In this document: positions 6,849 to 17,107 of the stretch, in pieces
Numbering within the stretch: the stretch's first letter is position 1
Layout of the letters: each line of letters starts with the position of its first letter
Source of the DNA: Nitrospira sp.
GTDB taxonomy: Bacteria > Nitrospirota > Nitrospiria > Nitrospirales > Nitrospiraceae
Length of the DNA stretch: 64,000 nucleotides
NCBI GenBank assembly: GCA_019636835.1
Contig: JAHBWU010000010.1
Coordinates: 1 to 64,000 of the forward strand
Reading direction: 5' to 3'
Notes under the pieces: model-generated
Told to the model about the DNA's origin: nothing
Databases searched by the model: none
What the model saw: only the letters and a program-made list of their open reading frames with translations
Program-made: the position numbers and the translations under genes

Positions 6849-8354
6849 CTACTTCGGATTAATCGCCACAAACAGGCTGTTCCCTTGCCGATTGACCAAC
6901 AGCACGGCAAGTTCGTCTTTCTTGATCTTTTCCGCAGCCTTTTGATAATCACTGAGCGTCTTGATCGACTCGTGATTGACTTCTTGGATCACGTCACCAC
7001 GCTGGAGGCCGGCTGCCTCTGCCGGACCACCAGACTCGACCGACGTGATGACCACTCCAGCCGTCTTCGCGGAAATGTTCAACTGGCTCATCAACGCATT
7101 ATCCAGCGTTTGGACGCGCAACGACGCGAGCACATTGTCCGGGAGCTTCATCGTTTCTCCCGCTTCCTTCGGCGGCGCCGGTTCTTTCTTGGCCAGCATT
7201 TCATCCGAGGGGCGTTCGGCCACCTTCACGACGAGCAGCTGCTCCTTGCCTTCGCGCAAGACCTTGACCTGCGCGTCTTTCCCTACCACCGTTCTGGCGA
7301 CGAGATTGCGCAGCTGACTGACACTTTGTACATCCTTGCCGTTAAATGCCACGACGACATCGCCTCGCTTCACTCCAGCGGCATGGGAAGGGCCGTTTTC
7401 ATTGACATCGCTGATCAACACACCCTTCCGCTGCTCCGGAAGCTTGAATGATTTCGCCAAGGCCGGCGTAATCTCCTGGATCGCGACGCCCATCCATCCG
7501 CGTACCACCTTACCCGTTCTCTGGAGACTGTCCACGATATCGAGGGCGATGCTGCTGGGAATCGCAAACCCGATCCCTTCCGATCCGCCGGTTCGCGAGA
7601 AAATCGCGGTGTTGATACCGATCAGATCTCCGTTCATGTTGACAAGCGCGCCGCCAGAATTTCCGGGATTGATCGCTGCGTCGGTCTGAATGAAATCCTC
7701 GTAGTCGGCAATTCCGACATTCCCGCGCCCAAGGGCGCTGATGATGCCGAGCGTGACGGTGGAACTCAAGCCAAACGGACTTCCAACCGCCAGCACAAGA
7801 TCACCGACCTGTAACTTTTCGTACTCAGCCCATTTCAGCGACGGCAAATCCTTGGCGTCGATCTTGACGACCGCCAAATCCGTCTTCGGATCAGTGCCTA
7901 CCACTTTCGCCGAAAACTCGCGCCGATCGCTGAGAGTCACAGTAATCTGAGTGGCTCCCTCAACGACGTGATTATTGGTCACGATGAACCCGCTGGCATC
8001 CAAGATGACGCCGGAGCCCGCGCTCTGATCCGGACGATGCGGCATGGGTGGACCATGCGGAATCGGCGGCGGGGTCGGCCCTTCTCCTCCTCCCGGTTCG
8101 TCTCCAGGCGGTGGGGTCCCGAATGGACTAGGCGGAGCCCCTCCTCGTCTTCGGCTCCCTTCTCCTCCGCCCGTCACTGCGATATTCACAACGGCCGGAG
8201 TAGTCTTTTTCACGATATCCGAAAAGCCTTGAGCCCATGCTGGAGGGACCCCTGCGGCTGATGCAGGTGACACGCATCCACTGCCGGCTAGAGCCCACAC
8301 AATCAGTCCGCTGCCGATACATACTTTGGTCGCTTGCTGACTCCAGTTTGCCAT
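6849..8354 (-). CDS. periplasmic serine protease, HtrA/DegP family
   Basis: Exported trypsin-like protease/chaperone that degrades misfolded envelope proteins. From the ATG at 8354 (GGAGG 8 bases upstream) it has 501 residues: an N-terminal signal segment, a protease domain with catalytic His129 (TNNHVV), Asp159 (KTDLAVV) and Ser233 (GNSGGAL), and two PDZ domains. Between signal and protease domain lies an unusual insert of about 50 residues (roughly 62-110) of mostly Gly, Pro and Arg, where DegP has its LA/Q-linker region. It follows its own promoter and a leader with two hairpins. tatC lies 82 bases downstream. Confidence 0.95.
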
Positions 8355-8376
8355 AACTGAATTCCTCCAGGATGTG

Positions 8377-8458
8377 ACTCTCATCGAGAGTACTATTAGT
8401 TCGAGCATCTCCATGGCTCGAACACTACATATTACACCACTCTTTCAACAGGCTTCAA
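8377..8458 (-). promoter_or_regulatory. htrA promoter and hairpin leader/operator
   Basis: Minus-strand promoter candidate: TTGAAG (8453-8458), 18-base spacer, TAATAT (8429-8434). At or just after the expected start point lies a perfect 8-bp inverted repeat GTTCGAGC/GCTCGAAC with a 9-base gap (8399-8423), then a second hairpin ACTCTC-ATC-GAGAGT (8377-8391) just ahead of the ribosome site. The 8-9-8 geometry resembles CIRCE-type operators, though the sequence is different. Confidence 0.5.
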
Positions 8459-8509: not shown

Positions 8510-10402
8510 ATGTTTCCAGTACGGTGGCGCACGCCCCAAGCGAGATTTGTTACCATAGGCCAGGCATTGATCCCAACAAAACCGTTCAATCGTAGGGGAC
8601 ATGCGGCAGGGGCATGGATCGGATGCGCGCTCCTCTTTCTTGCCGCTTGCGTCAAACCTCTGGAATTTCCTCCGCTGGGGGACCCGTTACCCGCCAGTGC
8701 CAAGCTTGAAATTTCCCCATCGATCAAAGAACTGACGATTCGTTACAGCGATTCCTGCGGCCAGCTCCAGGAAATTCCGCTGGGAGATCGAATCCAAGAG
8801 GCCTTACAGGAAGGCATTCATCGAACGTTCAAAACGGCATTTGACGAAGGCACCAGCGACACCTCCCCGCCTGATTATGTCATTCAGGTCGACCTTGTTG
8901 ATTCATCGTTCGACATCAATAAGGGGGCATTGTATGACCGGGCCCCCGCCGTTTTACACCTCAACGCCATCGCTCGCATCCACGACCGAAGGGGAGCGTT
9001 GCTCCGTCAGACGGACATCAAGATCGCCCGTCAGGAGCGATTGCGGCTCGAACAGCTCTCGAAAAACTGCGACTATATGATCGAGCCCTTCGTCCGCGAC
9101 GCCGTCATCGATTTTGCGACACGTGTCTCTCTGAATGCCAGACTCGCTGCCGGTGGACAGGAACCCATTGCTTCGCTGGAGCAGAACCAGACGTCGGTCG
9201 GAAATGGGGGAACGTCTTCGGCTTCAACCTCGTCGGTTCTTCGATTCAAAGCCATGCTCCTCGATGAGAACAGTAATCTGATTTTTGAAGGCGGCGAGCA
9301 TGTGCGGGTTCGTGTCGATGTGGTCAATGCGGGAACACGCTCCGTTGAGAATGTGTCGGCTTCTCTCACCGGAACTCCGTCGATCATCGAGCAATTCCCT
9401 GCAGCGACGCTGCCGATCCAGTCACTACAAGCGGGCCAGACGAAATCCCTCGAGTTCATCGCCACTCTCCCTCCGACCAAACAGGCCCAACAAGCTGTGA
9501 TCCATGTTACAGTGGCCGAATCGGGAGGAGCCGCGGCGCCGCCCCAAACCCTTTCGTTGACCATTCAGCCGTCCGGTACCGGCACGGACGACGTGAACCA
9601 AATTCCCGCGCCGGCGTTGGGCTTTCAACAGCCTCAGACCTACCTCATCTCTATCGGGGTCGGTTCCTATCGAGATACCAAGCTCACACCCCGCCGCTAC
9701 GCCGCAACGGATGCGGAGACCGTCGCCGCCTATTTTCAGTCGCTTGGCGGCATACCCCCGTCGAATATCCGGCTGTTGCGAAACCAGAAGGCACTCCGTG
9801 CCGATATCAACGAAGTATTGTTCGGCTGGCTCCCACAACATGCGGACAAGAATGCCGTCGTGATCGTCTATTTTTCGGGACAAGCGATGGTGACGCCGAC
9901 CGGCGATATCTTGCTGGCTCTTTATGACGGAAGTGCGGCAGACTCGACCCGACTTTACCCACTCAATGATTTTGAGTCAGCCTTCGCCAGGCTCAAGGCC
10001 AAGCATGTCATCTTCTTGTTCGACGGGACGGTGTCCAGACTGCGCGGTGATGCCAAGGGAAAGACTGCTTCACCCCATTGGGAACTTGGTGGAGGGAACA
10101 GTCTCGCACTGATCGGGGGCGAAGACTTTACGAAGGGGCTGGAAGACGACCAACACCGCCACAGCCTATTCACCTACTACCTCTTGAAAGGACTCCGAGG
10201 CGAGGCCGATACCAACCGCAACGGGACAGTCACATTCGGAGAACTTGCCGGCTACGTGCGTCAAAAAGTCGCCTGGGCGGCAAAGTCACAGTTCAATCAG
10301 GAGCAACGCCCCTTGCTGCTTCCACCGCTCAAGCCGGACGACGCGGCCGGCTCGCTTGTCCTGACTGCCCTTCCTTCGCTCACCTCGTCGGAAGGGCCAT
10401 AA
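8510..10402 (+). CDS. lipoprotein with CARDB-like and inactive caspase-like (C14) domains
   Basis: Predicted lipoprotein of 630 residues (lipobox LAAC, Cys47). A TTG at 8567 would give a more normal signal peptide starting just before an Arg-Arg pair. Residues ~60-200 form an unrecognised domain, ~240-345 look like a CARDB-type beta domain, and ~375-600 like a caspase/metacaspase fold. The catalytic His position reads YFSGQ (Gln458 in place of His) and the catalytic Cys strand reads FDGTVSR (504-510) rather than D-x-C-H-S-G, so peptidase activity is not expected. An EF-hand loop D567-x-N-x-N-G-x-V-x-x-x-E578 follows. It may act as an envelope scaffold (inference). Confidence 0.72.
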   Translation: MFPVRWRTPQARFVTIGQALIPTKPFNRRGHAAGAWIGCALLFLAACVKPLEFPPLGDPLPASAKLEISPSIKELTIRYSDSCGQLQEIPLGDRIQEALQEGIHRTFKTAFDEGTSDTSPPDYVIQVDLVDSSFDINKGALYDRAPAVLHLNAIARIHDRRGALLRQTDIKIARQERLRLEQLSKNCDYMIEPFVRDAVIDFATRVSLNARLAAGGQEPIASLEQNQTSVGNGGTSSASTSSVLRFKAMLLDENSNLIFEGGEHVRVRVDVVNAGTRSVENVSASLTGTPSIIEQFPAATLPIQSLQAGQTKSLEFIATLPPTKQAQQAVIHVTVAESGGAAAPPQTLSLTIQPSGTGTDDVNQIPAPALGFQQPQTYLISIGVGSYRDTKLTPRRYAATDAETVAAYFQSLGGIPPSNIRLLRNQKALRADINEVLFGWLPQHADKNAVVIVYFSGQAMVTPTGDILLALYDGSAADSTRLYPLNDFESAFARLKAKHVIFLFDGTVSRLRGDAKGKTASPHWELGGGNSLALIGGEDFTKGLEDDQHRHSLFTYYLLKGLRGEADTNRNGTVTFGELAGYVRQKVAWAAKSQFNQEQRPLLLPPLKPDDAAGSLVLTALPSLTSSEGP

Positions 10403-10820: not shown

Positions 10821-12743
10821 TCATAGCGCCTTCAGGGATGCTTCGGCAAGTTGTAGCTGGTGCCAACACCGTTCCAGAACCGGCATAAGGCGTGCTCGTG
10901 CAGCAGATATGTCAGATGACAGCCAGCGCAGTTGTTCAGGACCTTGTCGAAGAATGCTACTCAACCCTACCTGCTCGGCATCGAGCTCGCGATCGAGCTC
11001 GTCGATATCCGCCTGATTCACAGGTTCATTGGGATTGAAGCGAAAATTTTGCTCATGACCTTTTCGCCACTTGAGCAGTTCGCTGTTTAATTTTCGCCCA
11101 AACCCTGGTATGTCAATCCCGCCACGTTTAATATCCGCGGCTGTCTCGATCCCATAACTCGCCAGCATGGCGGTTCGGCTAGGCCCAATCCCCGGGATGT
11201 CTCCGCGATCTATTCGAAACCGGTCAAGATAGCGATCCAGTTGCCGCCCATGACGCTTCCCTTCCAGCTTTGCGATGCCCTGCTGCCTTTTCCTCGGCAG
11301 ATCCACCAACTGCCGTTTTGCTTTCTCCAGATCGTCTAACTTCCCACGGAATACCGACTGACTCGCTTCCCGCTTCCACCGAGCGATGGCATCTTCCCAT
11401 TCGTTCTTTGCTGTTGTGAGGACTCGCTCAGCCTGCAGCCGTTCTTCGCTTGATGCACGAGGCCATATAGCATAAGCAATAATCAACGCGGCGAGACCCC
11501 ACCAACCACTACCGCCCTTCGGATCAGCGTTGCATGCGGCAATGCCAAGAAGAACGATGGCGCAACCGATGAGCTTCCGGAATACATACGCAATCTTGCG
11601 GACAGATGAGACGGCGGTAAGCTGCCCAGGACGTTCTGATGGCAATGTAGGGTCCGGACCAGGCCCAGGGACTACAACAATCGTCTCCCAAAGAGCATCG
11701 ATATCGACAGTGCCAGTGAATCGATTGACAATAACTCGCTGTCCAAATAACCGAACGCCTGTCTTCTTTTCAACTGAGCACCAAGGACACGCAGGTAATG
11801 ACTGGAGGTAATGGTGCCATTTTGCAGAGCTGCAAACACGCAAGCTGTTCTCAAGTTGAACGAGGGCATCGATCCACTTCTCGGCCTTCGGACGCCCCCC
11901 ATGATTGCCTGCCCGCTCAAAGGTTCTAATAAACAGGTCAGAGATAGTCCTGCCCATGGTGTCCAACGGAATTGTTCCTGGTGGCCGTTCCATTTGATTC
12001 GCTTGGCGATCTGGTCCATACGCAAACCGGTTTTCGGCCACGGCTTTCTCAATCGGCATGTCCCCATGACCTAAAAAACGGCCAGCGAACGGATGCCGTC
12101 CCATATAGACGAGATGAAAGAGTAGAACCGCTAGGCCAAACATGTCGTGGTTGGGCGTTCGGATCAGGCCCCGCAACGGTTTGCCATGGAGTTCAGGTGC
12201 TGTAAACAATGGGACACCGACATCACAGGAAAATGCGGTCGCACCTTGGCCGACCTGGAATGAATCACAATCAATTAACATGACGGTGCCGTCAGGCCCG
12301 ACCAACAGATTGCCGTGATTGACGTCGCCGATCACGTGACCATGCTCATGAACCCTCGCGAAGGCTCGGGCGATGTTGGTTCCGACATGGACAAGGAATC
12401 GGAAATCGGTTTGAGGAAACGCATCGACCCGGCTTTTCGGACTGTACAGTTCATGAATGTCCCGCCTCGCGGCAATCCGAGGCATGACAAACCCGCGCAG
12501 CTTTTGGTAAGCATCGATCAACAGATCAATGGGCCAGGCGGCAATCTTCAACAAGGTAGGAGTCGACGTGCCTACCATCATTGTAAGTTTTTGGACCTTC
12601 TTGGGCTCGAGCTCTTTCAGGTATAGCTTCGCGACGCGGTCAGGACTTTCTGGGAGGGCAAAGATAACACCCTCACCTCCCCGACCAATTTCTTGTCCAA
12701 GGACCACGGTGACCCCTGAGCGGGCCAATCTGAGCTTTGTCAT
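10821..12743 (-). CDS. Ser/Thr kinase-like protein with membrane segments and helix-hairpin-helix domain
   Basis: 640-residue kinase of a VWA/PP2C/kinase triad. The N-terminal kinase domain has a Gly-rich loop GRGGEGVIF (~20-28), a Lys in RVAKLY, a catalytic loop HVIGDVNHGNLLV and a metal-binding IDCDSFQV in place of DFG, as in this kinase subfamily. A CPWC pair near residue 320 may be half of a zinc site. Two hydrophobic segments (~390-430) suggest membrane anchoring. A Lys/Arg-rich coiled region leads to HhH motifs IPGIGPSRT and IPGFGRK (~520-555), usually DNA- or protein-binding. Its start overlaps the phosphatase stop (ATGA). Targets are unknown. Confidence 0.8.
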   Translation of the reverse strand: MTKLRLARSGVTVVLGQEIGRGGEGVIFALPESPDRVAKLYLKELEPKKVQKLTMMVGTSTPTLLKIAAWPIDLLIDAYQKLRGFVMPRIAARRDIHELYSPKSRVDAFPQTDFRFLVHVGTNIARAFARVHEHGHVIGDVNHGNLLVGPDGTVMLIDCDSFQVGQGATAFSCDVGVPLFTAPELHGKPLRGLIRTPNHDMFGLAVLLFHLVYMGRHPFAGRFLGHGDMPIEKAVAENRFAYGPDRQANQMERPPGTIPLDTMGRTISDLFIRTFERAGNHGGRPKAEKWIDALVQLENSLRVCSSAKWHHYLQSLPACPWCSVEKKTGVRLFGQRVIVNRFTGTVDIDALWETIVVVPGPGPDPTLPSERPGQLTAVSSVRKIAYVFRKLIGCAIVLLGIAACNADPKGGSGWWGLAALIIAYAIWPRASSEERLQAERVLTTAKNEWEDAIARWKREASQSVFRGKLDDLEKAKRQLVDLPRKRQQGIAKLEGKRHGRQLDRYLDRFRIDRGDIPGIGPSRTAMLASYGIETAADIKRGGIDIPGFGRKLNSELLKWRKGHEQNFRFNPNEPVNQADIDELDRELDAEQVGLSSILRQGPEQLRWLSSDISAARARLMPVLERCWHQLQLAEASLKAL

Positions 12744-13507
12744 ATAGAAGCGCCCGTTGGTCGACGTGTTGCCAAAATGATGGATACATCGTCGTCGGTA
12801 CGGGAGGAGATTGGCTCGCTGGCGAGATAATCTTTCAATGAATCGGAGAAGGTTTTGATTTCGTCAGATCCCTGCTCGAGCACGAGGGATCGAAACATGC
12901 CATTAAAAAACGGCTGATGGACCGTCTGATCGGCATAGCGCAAGGCAAGACACTCGAGGCCGTCAGACATGAGAGCAAGATCTGTGATAGGCCCGGGAAA
13001 GCCCTCGACCTCAAGGCGTTGGGTTGCGGCCGGATCTGTAAGAAAAAAGGTGGTATTCGTGTATTCACCGCGCTGCGGCCAGAGAATCCAGGCCCACTCT
13101 TCATGGTCGCGCTTGACGACGATGACACCATCACCGATCTGTGCGGCAGCACCACCTTCATTGGTGAGAACGACAGCGAGGAGCGTGGAGGCATACTGAC
13201 GGATATCCTGTTGGTCCCGTTCCGCAACGGCGATAACTGCTTGGCGTGCTTCTCCGACCGCGTCCTGCACGAGAGATTTGAGATCAGTAGCTCCTTCGTT
13301 CAGAGACTTATGCAGGGAGGAAAGCACCGTGAGAACCGCTGTCTCAGCCCCGACCTCTCCGCGTACGGCTGACCCGGCTCCATCAGCGAGGGCTGCAATC
13401 AGGGTTCCATTGGCCAGGAGTTGTACGCCGAATCGGTCTTGACACGGGAGTCCGCTCTTCAGATGAGAACGCCCAGTGGCCCGCGCTGCAGCCCATCGCC
13501 ACACCAT
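12740..13507 (-). CDS. PP2C-family protein phosphatase
   Basis: Metal-dependent Ser/Thr phosphatase of 255 residues. Visible motifs are ADGAGSA (metal-binding Asp), QIGDGVIVV, LMSDGLE and C-terminal RTDDDVSII, in the order expected for PPM enzymes. The ATG at 13507 lies 4 bases after the VWA-gene stop; an upstream in-frame start (13618) would overlap the VWA gene and adds no PP2C sequence. It presumably opposes the kinase encoded directly downstream. Confidence 0.88.
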   Translation of the reverse strand: MVWRWAAARATGRSHLKSGLPCQDRFGVQLLANGTLIAALADGAGSAVRGEVGAETAVLTVLSSLHKSLNEGATDLKSLVQDAVGEARQAVIAVAERDQQDIRQYASTLLAVVLTNEGGAAAQIGDGVIVVKRDHEEWAWILWPQRGEYTNTTFFLTDPAATQRLEVEGFPGPITDLALMSDGLECLALRYADQTVHQPFFNGMFRSLVLEQGSDEIKTFSDSLKDYLASEPISSRTDDDVSIILATRRPTGASI

Positions 13508-13511
13508 AATC

Positions 13512-14189
13512 TCAGCCAGCGACGGCCCAGCCGTCCGGTGCGGTTGGATTAGCGAGCGGCACCTTATCTCCAGGTTGAGACCGGGAAATACTACCCAGAG
13601 AGTTCGAGAGCCAGACAAACAATTCTCTGAACGACAGACCTTTGAGCATTAGGGGTTCTCGCACGGCTATCTGTTTGAGCTTACCCATGTCTGCACCCTC
13701 CACACCGACCGCGTAGAACATAAAGTTCTTCGACATTTCGCCTTCTTTTAAGGCAGCAGTTGCAGCCGTTACTTCGTCGGTGGGCCCTCCATCGGTAATG
13801 AGGAAAATCCAGGGGCGGTAGTACCCGACACCGTTCGCCTTATACGTTGCTTTGCGATCACTGATCATTGAGATAGCTGTTTGAATGGCAGCTCCCATGG
13901 GGGTATCCGCATCGGCCACCAGCGTAGGAGGATGAAAGGTGTCTGCTGTAACGAAATGCTGGATAGTCTGTACTGGACCGAAGGTCACAATCGCCACCTC
14001 GACCCGCTTGGCAGCCATTGCATCGGAGCGCAATTCGTCCGCAAAGATTTCGAGACCCTTGTTTAGTTCAACAATCTTTGCACCTCGCATGGACGCTGAC
14101 GTGTCAAGGAGAAGAATGCATGGACAGCGTGGTTCCGGATTGTCAGCAAATTCAACACCACCAAACGGTACCTGATCAAGTGTGGACAT
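13512..14189 (-). CDS. VWA-domain protein, TerY-like
   Basis: Single von Willebrand A domain protein, 225 residues, cytoplasmic (no signal peptide). The MIDAS motif DTSAS is near residues 29-33, with the second metal loop Thr in DTPMG and the third Asp in [10 protein letters not shown], so the metal site is intact. A strong ribosome site AGGAGG precedes the ATG. First gene of the VWA-PP2C-kinase operon. In published comparative work such triads are called TerY-P and were proposed as phosphorylation switches; here no ter genes are adjacent. Confidence 0.85.
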
Positions 14190-15256: not shown

Positions 15257-17107
15257 CTATTGACTACTCACCTGTAGTTGAATACTGCCCGTCTCAGACA
15301 ACGCAGGATTTACTGTGACTGTGTACGTGTCTGCTGAAGCCAGTGTGACTGGGTTAAGAGTGAAGCTTGATTCGGAGCTCGTCATCCCGGCTTGCAGGAT
15401 GCCATTCGGGCTATAGAGATTGACGGTCACGCTGCCGAGCTTATTGTTGGTGACCTTGATCGTGGCTAGTTGATTCGCGGTGCCTGTAAACGTATAGCGT
15501 CCATTTTGGCCCGCGCGGCTGACCGTGATCGGCCTTGGCCCCGCATTCATCTTTAATGAATCCGCAACCTCGGTCGAGAGAGTCAAGGTCATTTTCCCGG
15601 TGTAGCTACCGACAGGATCGACGAGAATCGTATATGTGCCGGTGGTCGGCAAGGGGTTTTGATCTTCGAGACCCCCACCGGCCGTACCCACACCCGTTGA
15701 GGCAAGGATGATCCCATCCGATGTCATAAGCGTGACCGCACTGGATGTAATACTCACGGACGAAAGCCCGAGATTCACCCATTGCCCAGCGTTGCCATTG
15801 AACGTATAGCGCGCCGTCTGGCCCACCCTGTTCAGATTAACCGGCACCGAGGCTCCATCGAGTGCGATCGTACCCGTGACGGGAGAAGAAAGGGCGAGCG
15901 TCATACTGCCGGTATAGTTACTAACCGGTTCCACCGCGATGGTGTAAGTCCCTGTTGCGGGCAGAGCCGTCAAGGGATCGAGACTGCCGCCACTTGGACC
16001 GATTGTGGTCGATTCCCATTTACTGCCATCCGGTTTCAGGATGGCCACAGTCGTCATGGGAATTGTCACCCCGGTAAGCCCGAGATTCACCCATTGCCCC
16101 TCCGTCCCGCTGAATGTATAGCGCGCCCGTTGACCCGGCACTGTTAGGGTCGATGTCACAGTCCCTTGATCGATCACGATGCTCCCGGTCAGTTCCGGAG
16201 CATTATAAAGCGCCAGCTTGACCCTCCCGGTGTAACTCAGATCCGATTCAACCAAGACAGCATAGGTTCCCGAAGCCGGAAGGACCTGGCCCGGAATCAT
16301 AGTACCCACCGCACCACCCCCAGAGACAAATGAGATCGGCTTGCCTAACAAACTTCCATCCGGAGCAACAATCGAGACGTACCCGCTTCGGATTGTCACC
16401 TCGCTCAACTGTAAACTCACCGTTTTGCCGCTTTCTCCCGAGAATGTATAACGGGCCTTCTGCCCGGTCCGATTGATATTGGCCGTTACAGCTGAACCGT
16501 GAGGGACAAGATCACCACTGAGCTCGTTTGAAAGCGTGAGCTTGAAACTCCCCGTATACGTAACGTCCGGGTCGATGAAAATTGTATAGGCCCCTGTTAC
16601 CGGCAGTACTTCAAGATCAACGCTAGCGCCGTTCATCTCGCTGGAAGAGATCGCGGCAGCCGAATCGGTCGAAAACTGGTAGGCTGCCATGTCTGTATGC
16701 ACTTTTGTCTGTGAGGAGAGTGGCCGCTCGCCCATCGTCGCATAATAGTTCCTCACTGCGGAGACATGTCGGGGCATCACCCCGCCATCCGGCCGATAGA
16801 CTGACACGTGAAACTGTGTGAGGGTGACACCGCTGAAGCCGATATTGATCCGCTGGCCGGCTGTGCCGTCGAAGACCACCACGCCATTCTTATTCGGAGT
16901 GGCAATTTTCACCGTGACCGGGTCACCGTTGACAGCAATACGACCATTGTATTCGATATCCGCTGCCGCGACGCCTGGCGGTAGGGCAGTATCTCCGGCA
17001 TAACTCCTGTCACTGGTAATACTGGAAATGAGTCCCGCTGAGCCAAGCACAAGCGTGATCATTGCTACTCGTACTCGGCACTTCACCCACGGCCATAGGC
17101 TGTACAT
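15257..17107 (-). CDS. secreted protein of tandem PPC-like beta domains
   Basis: 616-residue exported protein; signal peptide ends near residue 37 (RSYAGD). The rest is about five repeats of ~100 residues, each with a core like GQxARYTFxGxxGQWVNLGLxxV, then a YxPDG-like turn and an end such as LPxTGTYTIxVxPxxxYTGxMTLxLS. This is the pattern of bacterial pre-peptidase C-terminal (PPC) domains, but no peptidase is attached. Repeats 3 and 4 (~315-505) are most alike, suggesting recent internal duplication. GGAGGG precedes the ATG. Possible surface adhesion or binding role; unknown. Confidence 0.75.
   Translation of the reverse strand: MYSLWPWVKCRVRVAMITLVLGSAGLISSITSDRSYAGDTALPPGVAAADIEYNGRIAVNGDPVTVKIATPNKNGVVVFDGTAGQRINIGFSGVTLTQFHVSVYRPDGGVMPRHVSAVRNYYATMGERPLSSQTKVHTDMAAYQFSTDSAAAISSSEMNGASVDLEVLPVTGAYTIFIDPDVTYTGSFKLTLSNELSGDLVPHGSAVTANINRTGQKARYTFSGESGKTVSLQLSEVTIRSGYVSIVAPDGSLLGKPISFVSGGGAVGTMIPGQVLPASGTYAVLVESDLSYTGRVKLALYNAPELTGSIVIDQGTVTSTLTVPGQRARYTFSGTEGQWVNLGLTGVTIPMTTVAILKPDGSKWESTTIGPSGGSLDPLTALPATGTYTIAVEPVSNYTGSMTLALSSPVTGTIALDGASVPVNLNRVGQTARYTFNGNAGQWVNLGLSSVSITSSAVTLMTSDGIILASTGVGTAGGGLEDQNPLPTTGTYTILVDPVGSYTGKMTLTLSTEVADSLKMNAGPRPITVSRAGQNGRYTFTGTANQLATIKVTNNKLGSVTVNLYSPNGILQAGMTSSESSFTLNPVTLASADTYTVTVNPALSETGSIQLQVSSQ

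Follow-up and report, generated by a model that had tools for sequence, protein, structure and literature searches.

A Nitrospirales family of lipoproteins with a caspase fold and without the catalytic His/Cys dyad

Introduction

In pseudo-orthocaspases the caspase fold is combined with a replaced His/Cys dyad, and these proteins are presumed to be non-catalytic. As far as the accessible part of the survey by Klemencic et al. (2019, PMC6426788) goes, they are found mainly in Alphaproteobacteria and Cyanobacteria, carry most often Tyr/Ser and are linked to photosynthesis; the term "nitrospir" has 0 occurrences in the accessible main text. For Synechocystis, the corresponding part of PMC7889975 describes that deletion of the pseudo-orthocaspase SyOC resulted in a higher tolerance to oxidative stress. 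An earlier survey reported an intact Cys-His dyad in only 57% of the caspase homologues from Nitrospirae (Asplund-Samuelsson et al., 2012, PMC3501461); in the accessible part of its text the word "CARDB" is absent and no family, lipoprotein architecture or neighbour is described. Our literature searches found no description of the Nitrospira pseudo-caspase lipoprotein family that is presented here.

The gene is located in a stretch of 64,000 nucleotides of a Nitrospira sp. contig (hereafter the window). Its product shares with the pseudo-orthocaspases, as covered in the parts of PMC6426788 and PMC7889975 available, the caspase fold, the replaced dyad and the presumed lack of catalysis, and with the Nitrospirae metacaspases of the 2012 survey, seen likewise in part, the loss of the dyad in part of the homologues. 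In contrast to the pseudo-orthocaspases described there, for which Tyr/Ser is the commonest pair, the Nitrospira family has Gln or Leu together with a variable residue, and the protein of this Nitrospirota nitrifier is a lipoprotein with envelope and CARDB-like domains. Thus, pseudo-orthocaspases as such are already known, whereas the lipoprotein architecture and the conservation in non-phototrophs look undescribed in the sources covered.

Results

Gene structure and domain architecture

The gene and the parts that precede the caspase domain, together with a calcium loop within it, are as follows.

8510-10402, + strand: pseudo-caspase lipoprotein gene, 630 amino acids as first called (open reading frame and translation, Pfam)
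8567-8569, + strand: TTG, likely the true start codon, residue 20 (orthologue comparison)
8567-8650, + strand: lipoprotein signal peptide with the lipobox LAAC at its end (Cys47; lipobox pattern)
8657-9163, + strand: N-terminal domain, residues 50-218, predicted PqiC/CsgG/TolB/LptE-type fold (AlphaFold2 and fold searches)
9233-9577, + strand: CARDB-like beta-sandwich, residues 242-356 (Pfam CARDB, strands in the model)
10208-10243, + strand: EF-hand calcium loop DTNRNGTVTFGE, residues 567-578 (translation, alignment)

Judged from the orthologues, the gene probably starts at the TTG at 8567 and not at the ATG at 8510, since several orthologues without an ATG upstream of the signal peptide share this TTG, which places their lipobox Cys at residue 28. 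A lipid anchor had been proposed in the first-pass annotation, and this is borne out by the lipobox LAAC at Cys47 of the 630-residue reading frame and by the presence of the pattern in 14 of 14 members of set A1; for L007, L015 and L018 the first match to the pattern lies upstream of the aligned Cys. The signal peptide is followed by the N-terminal domain, a variable linker, the CARDB-like beta-sandwich and a C-terminal caspase fold. The +2 rule for lipoprotein sorting concerns an Asp after the Cys, and in the rows where the Cys aligns no Asp follows it. The lipobox, the missing Asp and the fold are the grounds on which the protein is placed, probably, at the outer membrane.

The N-terminal domain, first listed as unknown, is indeed present, and its description can be extended to a predicted envelope-lipoprotein fold of the PqiC/CsgG/LptE type. 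Modelled alone with AlphaFold2 (pLDDT 90.9, pTM 0.87), it matched 2iqi, a member of DUF330, which we take to be the PqiC/ABC_trans_aux family, with Z 12.6 and rmsd 3.2 over 146 residues. Further fold matches were CsgG (Z 10.3), the TolB N-terminus (10.1), PelC (9.6) and LptE (9.5). The domain has the predicted fold and the lipoprotein anchoring in common with this group, but the sequence-family matches are weak (PF03886 matches 5 of 59 members, best E 0.055) and the domain is here fused to a caspase domain. Since the fold group serves proteins of envelope machines, the N-terminal domain points to the periplasm and the outer membrane.

The beta-sandwich scored 21.3 bits with Pfam CARDB, just below the cut-off of 22.7, and is hence called CARDB-like only. 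The EF-hand loop was correctly described as intact: the pattern D567-x-N-x-N-G-x-V-x-x-x-E578 is complete and the loop residues are conserved, with a Pfam EF-hand score of 12.9 bits that is below the cut-off. Dead domains are not alone in having this loop: the pattern was found in 9 of 14 active C14 rows as well as in 64 of 69 dead rows.

A caspase fold without the catalytic dyad

9635-10339, + strand: dead caspase (C14) domain, residues 376-610 (Pfam C14, structural match to MALT1, low omega)
9881-9883, + strand: Gln458 at the position of the catalytic His (alignment with intact H/C relatives)
10028-10030, + strand: Thr507 at the position of the catalytic Cys, hypervariable (alignment with intact H/C relatives)

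Residues 382-602 matched Pfam Peptidase_C14 with E 1.9e-8 and 34.7 bits (cut-off 21.4). A full-length AlphaFold2 model, based on 59 orthologues, had a mean pLDDT of 84.4 and a pTM of 0.52, so that the individual domains are reliable and their mutual arrangement is not. In this model the predicted fold covers the whole caspase domain, and the C-terminal part matched the caspase domain of MALT1 with Z 22.0 and rmsd 2.8 over 213 residues, followed by Arabidopsis metacaspase 4 (Z 20.6) and Geobacter GSU0716 (Z 19.8). The MALT1 paracaspase domain is thus the closest solved fold by Z, although MALT1 is an active eukaryotic protease and the identity is 13%. Searching the solved structures with a sequence profile produced no useful match.

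Both the fold and the family profile place the domain in the C14 superfamily, while the His/Cys dyad required of a protease is absent; it is a p20-type domain with both dyad residues replaced, as in pseudo-orthocaspases, where one or both are. The first-pass annotation had proposed a caspase-like fold that has lost both catalytic residues, and structure prediction and the alignment with intact H/C relatives agree with it on both points. Going by its residues, the C14 domain cannot hydrolyse peptides by a His/Cys mechanism.

The scan of species genomes gave 118 confirmed relatives, of which the best 80 were counted; one of the relatives is labelled Nitrosospira and the rest Nitrospira, Nitrospiraceae, Nitrospirae or Nitrospirota. 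Nitrospira moscoviensis, which is in culture, has an orthologue (L110). Position 507 was Cys in 0 of the best 80 of the 118, and a sequencing error or one-off mutation in the window can therefore be ruled out. Conservation of the Gln was confirmed in part: in the same 80 sequences it is the commonest residue at position 458 (52) but not universal, with Leu in 20, His in 7 and Val in 1. A search of the phylum with the N-terminal domain yielded 30 loci, including some genomes already in the other set; in 29 of these the C14 domain was readable, and Cys was found in 0 of 29.

Distribution and phylogeny

The N-terminal domain was matched in 54 of 198 genomes of the phylum. All 47 genomes sampled from the family of the window genome have it, 20 of them belonging to its genus and 27 not, as do 7 of 9 genomes of another family of the order; no match was obtained outside the order in this search. 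The search missed at least one member, as G033 gave no match and the G033 protein does match the N-domain profile.

A tree was calculated from 83 C14 domains (69 dead, 14 active), excluding fragments below 170 residues and the majority of the 80 loci; the program warned about long branches among the active rows. The lipoprotein group, represented by 59 dead rows, formed one clade (support 97/95), and the intact H/C proteins of two genomes (G035 and G001) adjoin this clade in a joint group with support 100/96. A separate dead group of 10 with His/Pro or His/Ala represents a second loss. In the set examined, all N-domain proteins with a readable C14 domain are dead, and the N-domain profile matched none of the active C14 proteins. 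The window protein is a member of an order-wide family of dead caspases.

Nitrospira-family chemolithotrophic nitrifiers are not photosynthetic. That the dead form is near-universal in this family of nitrifiers, and located in the cell envelope, argues for a role that does not depend on photosynthesis.

Selection on the dead domain

Alignment A2 consists of 59 rows, the window sequence and 58 of the best 80 relatives, which were picked for uninterrupted matches, so that neither the conservation nor the omega figures include broken copies. For dN/dS, Nei-Gojobori counting was applied to 207 pairs, not independent of each other, with 70-97% identity; after removal of those whose dS was saturated or very low, 198-204 pairs were left for the three folded domains in the first run. 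In this run omega was 0.115 for C14, 0.136 for the N-terminal domain and 0.159 for the CARDB-like domain. A second run with slightly stricter limits, and hence slightly different figures, gave 0.117 (0.099-0.136), 0.142 (0.119-0.171) and 0.161 (0.132-0.194), respectively. As omega of the dead C14 domain is low and the lowest of the three, the domain is under selection and at least as constrained as the rest of the protein.

Gene neighbourhood

6849-8414, - strand: htrA (trypsin and two PDZ domains), divergent neighbour (Pfam)
10821-14189: kinase, PP2C and VWA genes next to the pseudo-caspase gene

The first-pass annotation had placed the gene between htrA and this phosphorylation triad, and had asked whether orthologues keep htrA. 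Among the best 80 of the 118 relatives, 51 loci have a divergently oriented htrA upstream, often followed further out by tatC, mrp and moeA, and 29 of the 80 show no htrA in the stretch covered. The other half of this position did not hold beyond the window: none of the kinase, PP2C and VWA genes was seen in any of the same 80 loci, several of which are short downstream, and a separate comparison of loci found the kinase only at the locus of the window genome itself. The triad is therefore ruled out as a conserved partner and, being absent at this site in relatives, looks like an insertion. Taken as a whole, the family has no fixed link to htrA either, since an Arg/Ser paralogue adjoins UbiA and cytochrome c genes. 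The frequent htrA neighbour is taken as a weak hint at envelope assembly or quality control.

A gene for a PPC-domain protein (15257-17107 of the window) is near the pseudo-caspase gene in 21 of the best 80 of the 118 relatives. Membership of a defence system was considered and rejected: the PADLOC match to P0001 was to the generic "caspase" model only, partial and with E 1.2e-6, and the NCBIfam model of the EACC1-associated caspase scored 50.3 against a cut-off of 140.

A probable binding role in the envelope

At the level of sequence comparison and structure prediction, the caspase fold, the family-wide loss of the dyad, the purifying selection and the presence throughout the order are established. 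The alignments likewise establish that the EF-hand loop is retained, together with two acidic positions of what was once the substrate cleft. As the cutting residues are lost and the domain is nevertheless kept by selection, the protein probably binds or holds something in the envelope. The reading that we favour, and hold to be rather probable, is that of an outer-envelope pseudoprotease of three folded domains that works by binding. The lipoprotein would face the periplasm, probably at the outer membrane, with its PqiC/CsgG/LptE-type, Ig-like CARDB-type and caspase-fold domains. The C14 domain would now bind a ligand or partner without cutting it, calcium might stabilise the C-terminal part, and the lipid anchor and the N-terminal domain would hold the binding module at the envelope, where the protein may act as scaffold or receptor in assembly or quality control. 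The scaffold or sensor proposed in the first-pass annotation is likewise a conjecture.

The two acidic residues of the former cleft are as follows.

9710-9712, + strand: Asp401, in 59 of 59 rows; active C14 relatives have their first conserved acidic position here
10022-10024, + strand: Asp505, second conserved acidic position (Asp in 54, Glu in 5 of 59)

Active relatives have Asp at the positions aligned with both, and Asp401 and Asp/Glu505 are likewise present in 29 of 29 phylum-search loci; Phe504, Gly457 and Glu578 are each found in 59 of 59 rows. Against the favoured reading, the equivalent of Asp401 is gone in 6 of 6 rows of the sister group f3, so that retention of the cleft is not universal. 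By sequence alignment, Asp401 and Asp505 may correspond to S1-pocket residues of metacaspases. According to the accessible part of PMC13304501, acidic residues form the metacaspase S1 pocket for Arg/Lys. The domain might be a receptor for peptides whose basic residues are terminal or displayed, in which an acidic S1-type pocket captures the products of a protease, for example those of HtrA, uncut. The common htrA neighbour fits with this, the loci without htrA do not. This version is attractive but weaker than the general binding reading, and we regard it as improbable. Its fullest form, a Nitrospirales-specific outer-envelope receptor in which a lipoprotein caspase was turned into a domain that captures peptides without cutting them, keeps its acidic pocket and calcium loop intact and perhaps reads HtrA products, is speculative and on balance unlikely. 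If true, this pseudo-caspase would have a conserved role that has nothing to do with photosynthesis or with regulating active caspases. With a nucleophile position that is free to vary between fixed acidic residues, the domain offers a clean and testable example of how a protease fold can be retained for binding.

Alternatively, the caspase domain could be a decaying relic, with only the N-terminal and CARDB-like domains being of importance. Some lineages have lost the C14 domain, which counts against the favoured reading too, and their copies are short or broken: those of G002 and G005 stop after the CARDB-like domain, that of G019 is cut at query residue 510, the G007 gene is frameshifted and the G009 gene contains stops. 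The nucleophile position, moreover, is unconstrained. However, omega is lowest for the C14 domain, 25 of the 46 columns that are invariant in the 59 sequences fall within it and the family is kept order-wide, which makes decay decidedly improbable. Duplicate lipoprotein genes without the N-terminal domain and with the C14 domain nearly all gone adjoin the main gene in G005 (L035:9457-10218) and G017 (L040:12099-12866).

The protein could also regulate an active caspase of the same cell or serve as its decoy, as c-FLIP does for caspase-8, and the source genome does encode two C14 proteins with intact H/C (C37 and C57). The active genes are on other contigs, however, C57, the one scanned, differs in architecture, and in the loci read the two kinds of gene did not lie together, which leaves this proposal with little probability.

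That the domain is an active hydrolase with a substituted nucleophile is very unlikely, since, although Thr507 or Ser507 could in principle serve in some copies, the residue is M, T, I, K, A, N, L, V, S or R among the relatives, which no shared chemistry fits. Of the 235 domain positions in the 59-row alignment, position 507 ranks at the 99th percentile for variability.

Paralogues and sister proteins

Besides the window protein (C2), the source genome encodes two further dead C14 proteins, C85 (His/Pro) and C88 (Arg/Ser). C85 (L173) belongs to a second, independent dead C14 family of the genus in which the His is kept and Pro or Ala replaces the Cys; further members are L065, L066, L068, L080, L081, L086, L087, L088 and L032:3723-5123, and at least one of them (L066) contains TPR repeats. 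C88 (L031:1918-3954) is a pseudo-caspase paralogue of ~680 amino acids, whose gene diverges from a UbiA gene and has cytochrome c genes nearby.

Two intact H/C sister proteins, L070:2155-3687 and L079:1989-3566, have lipobox-like N-termini, and L070 shows a weak TolB_N match N-terminal to its caspase domain. It is possible that the layout of L070 pictures the ancestral architecture.
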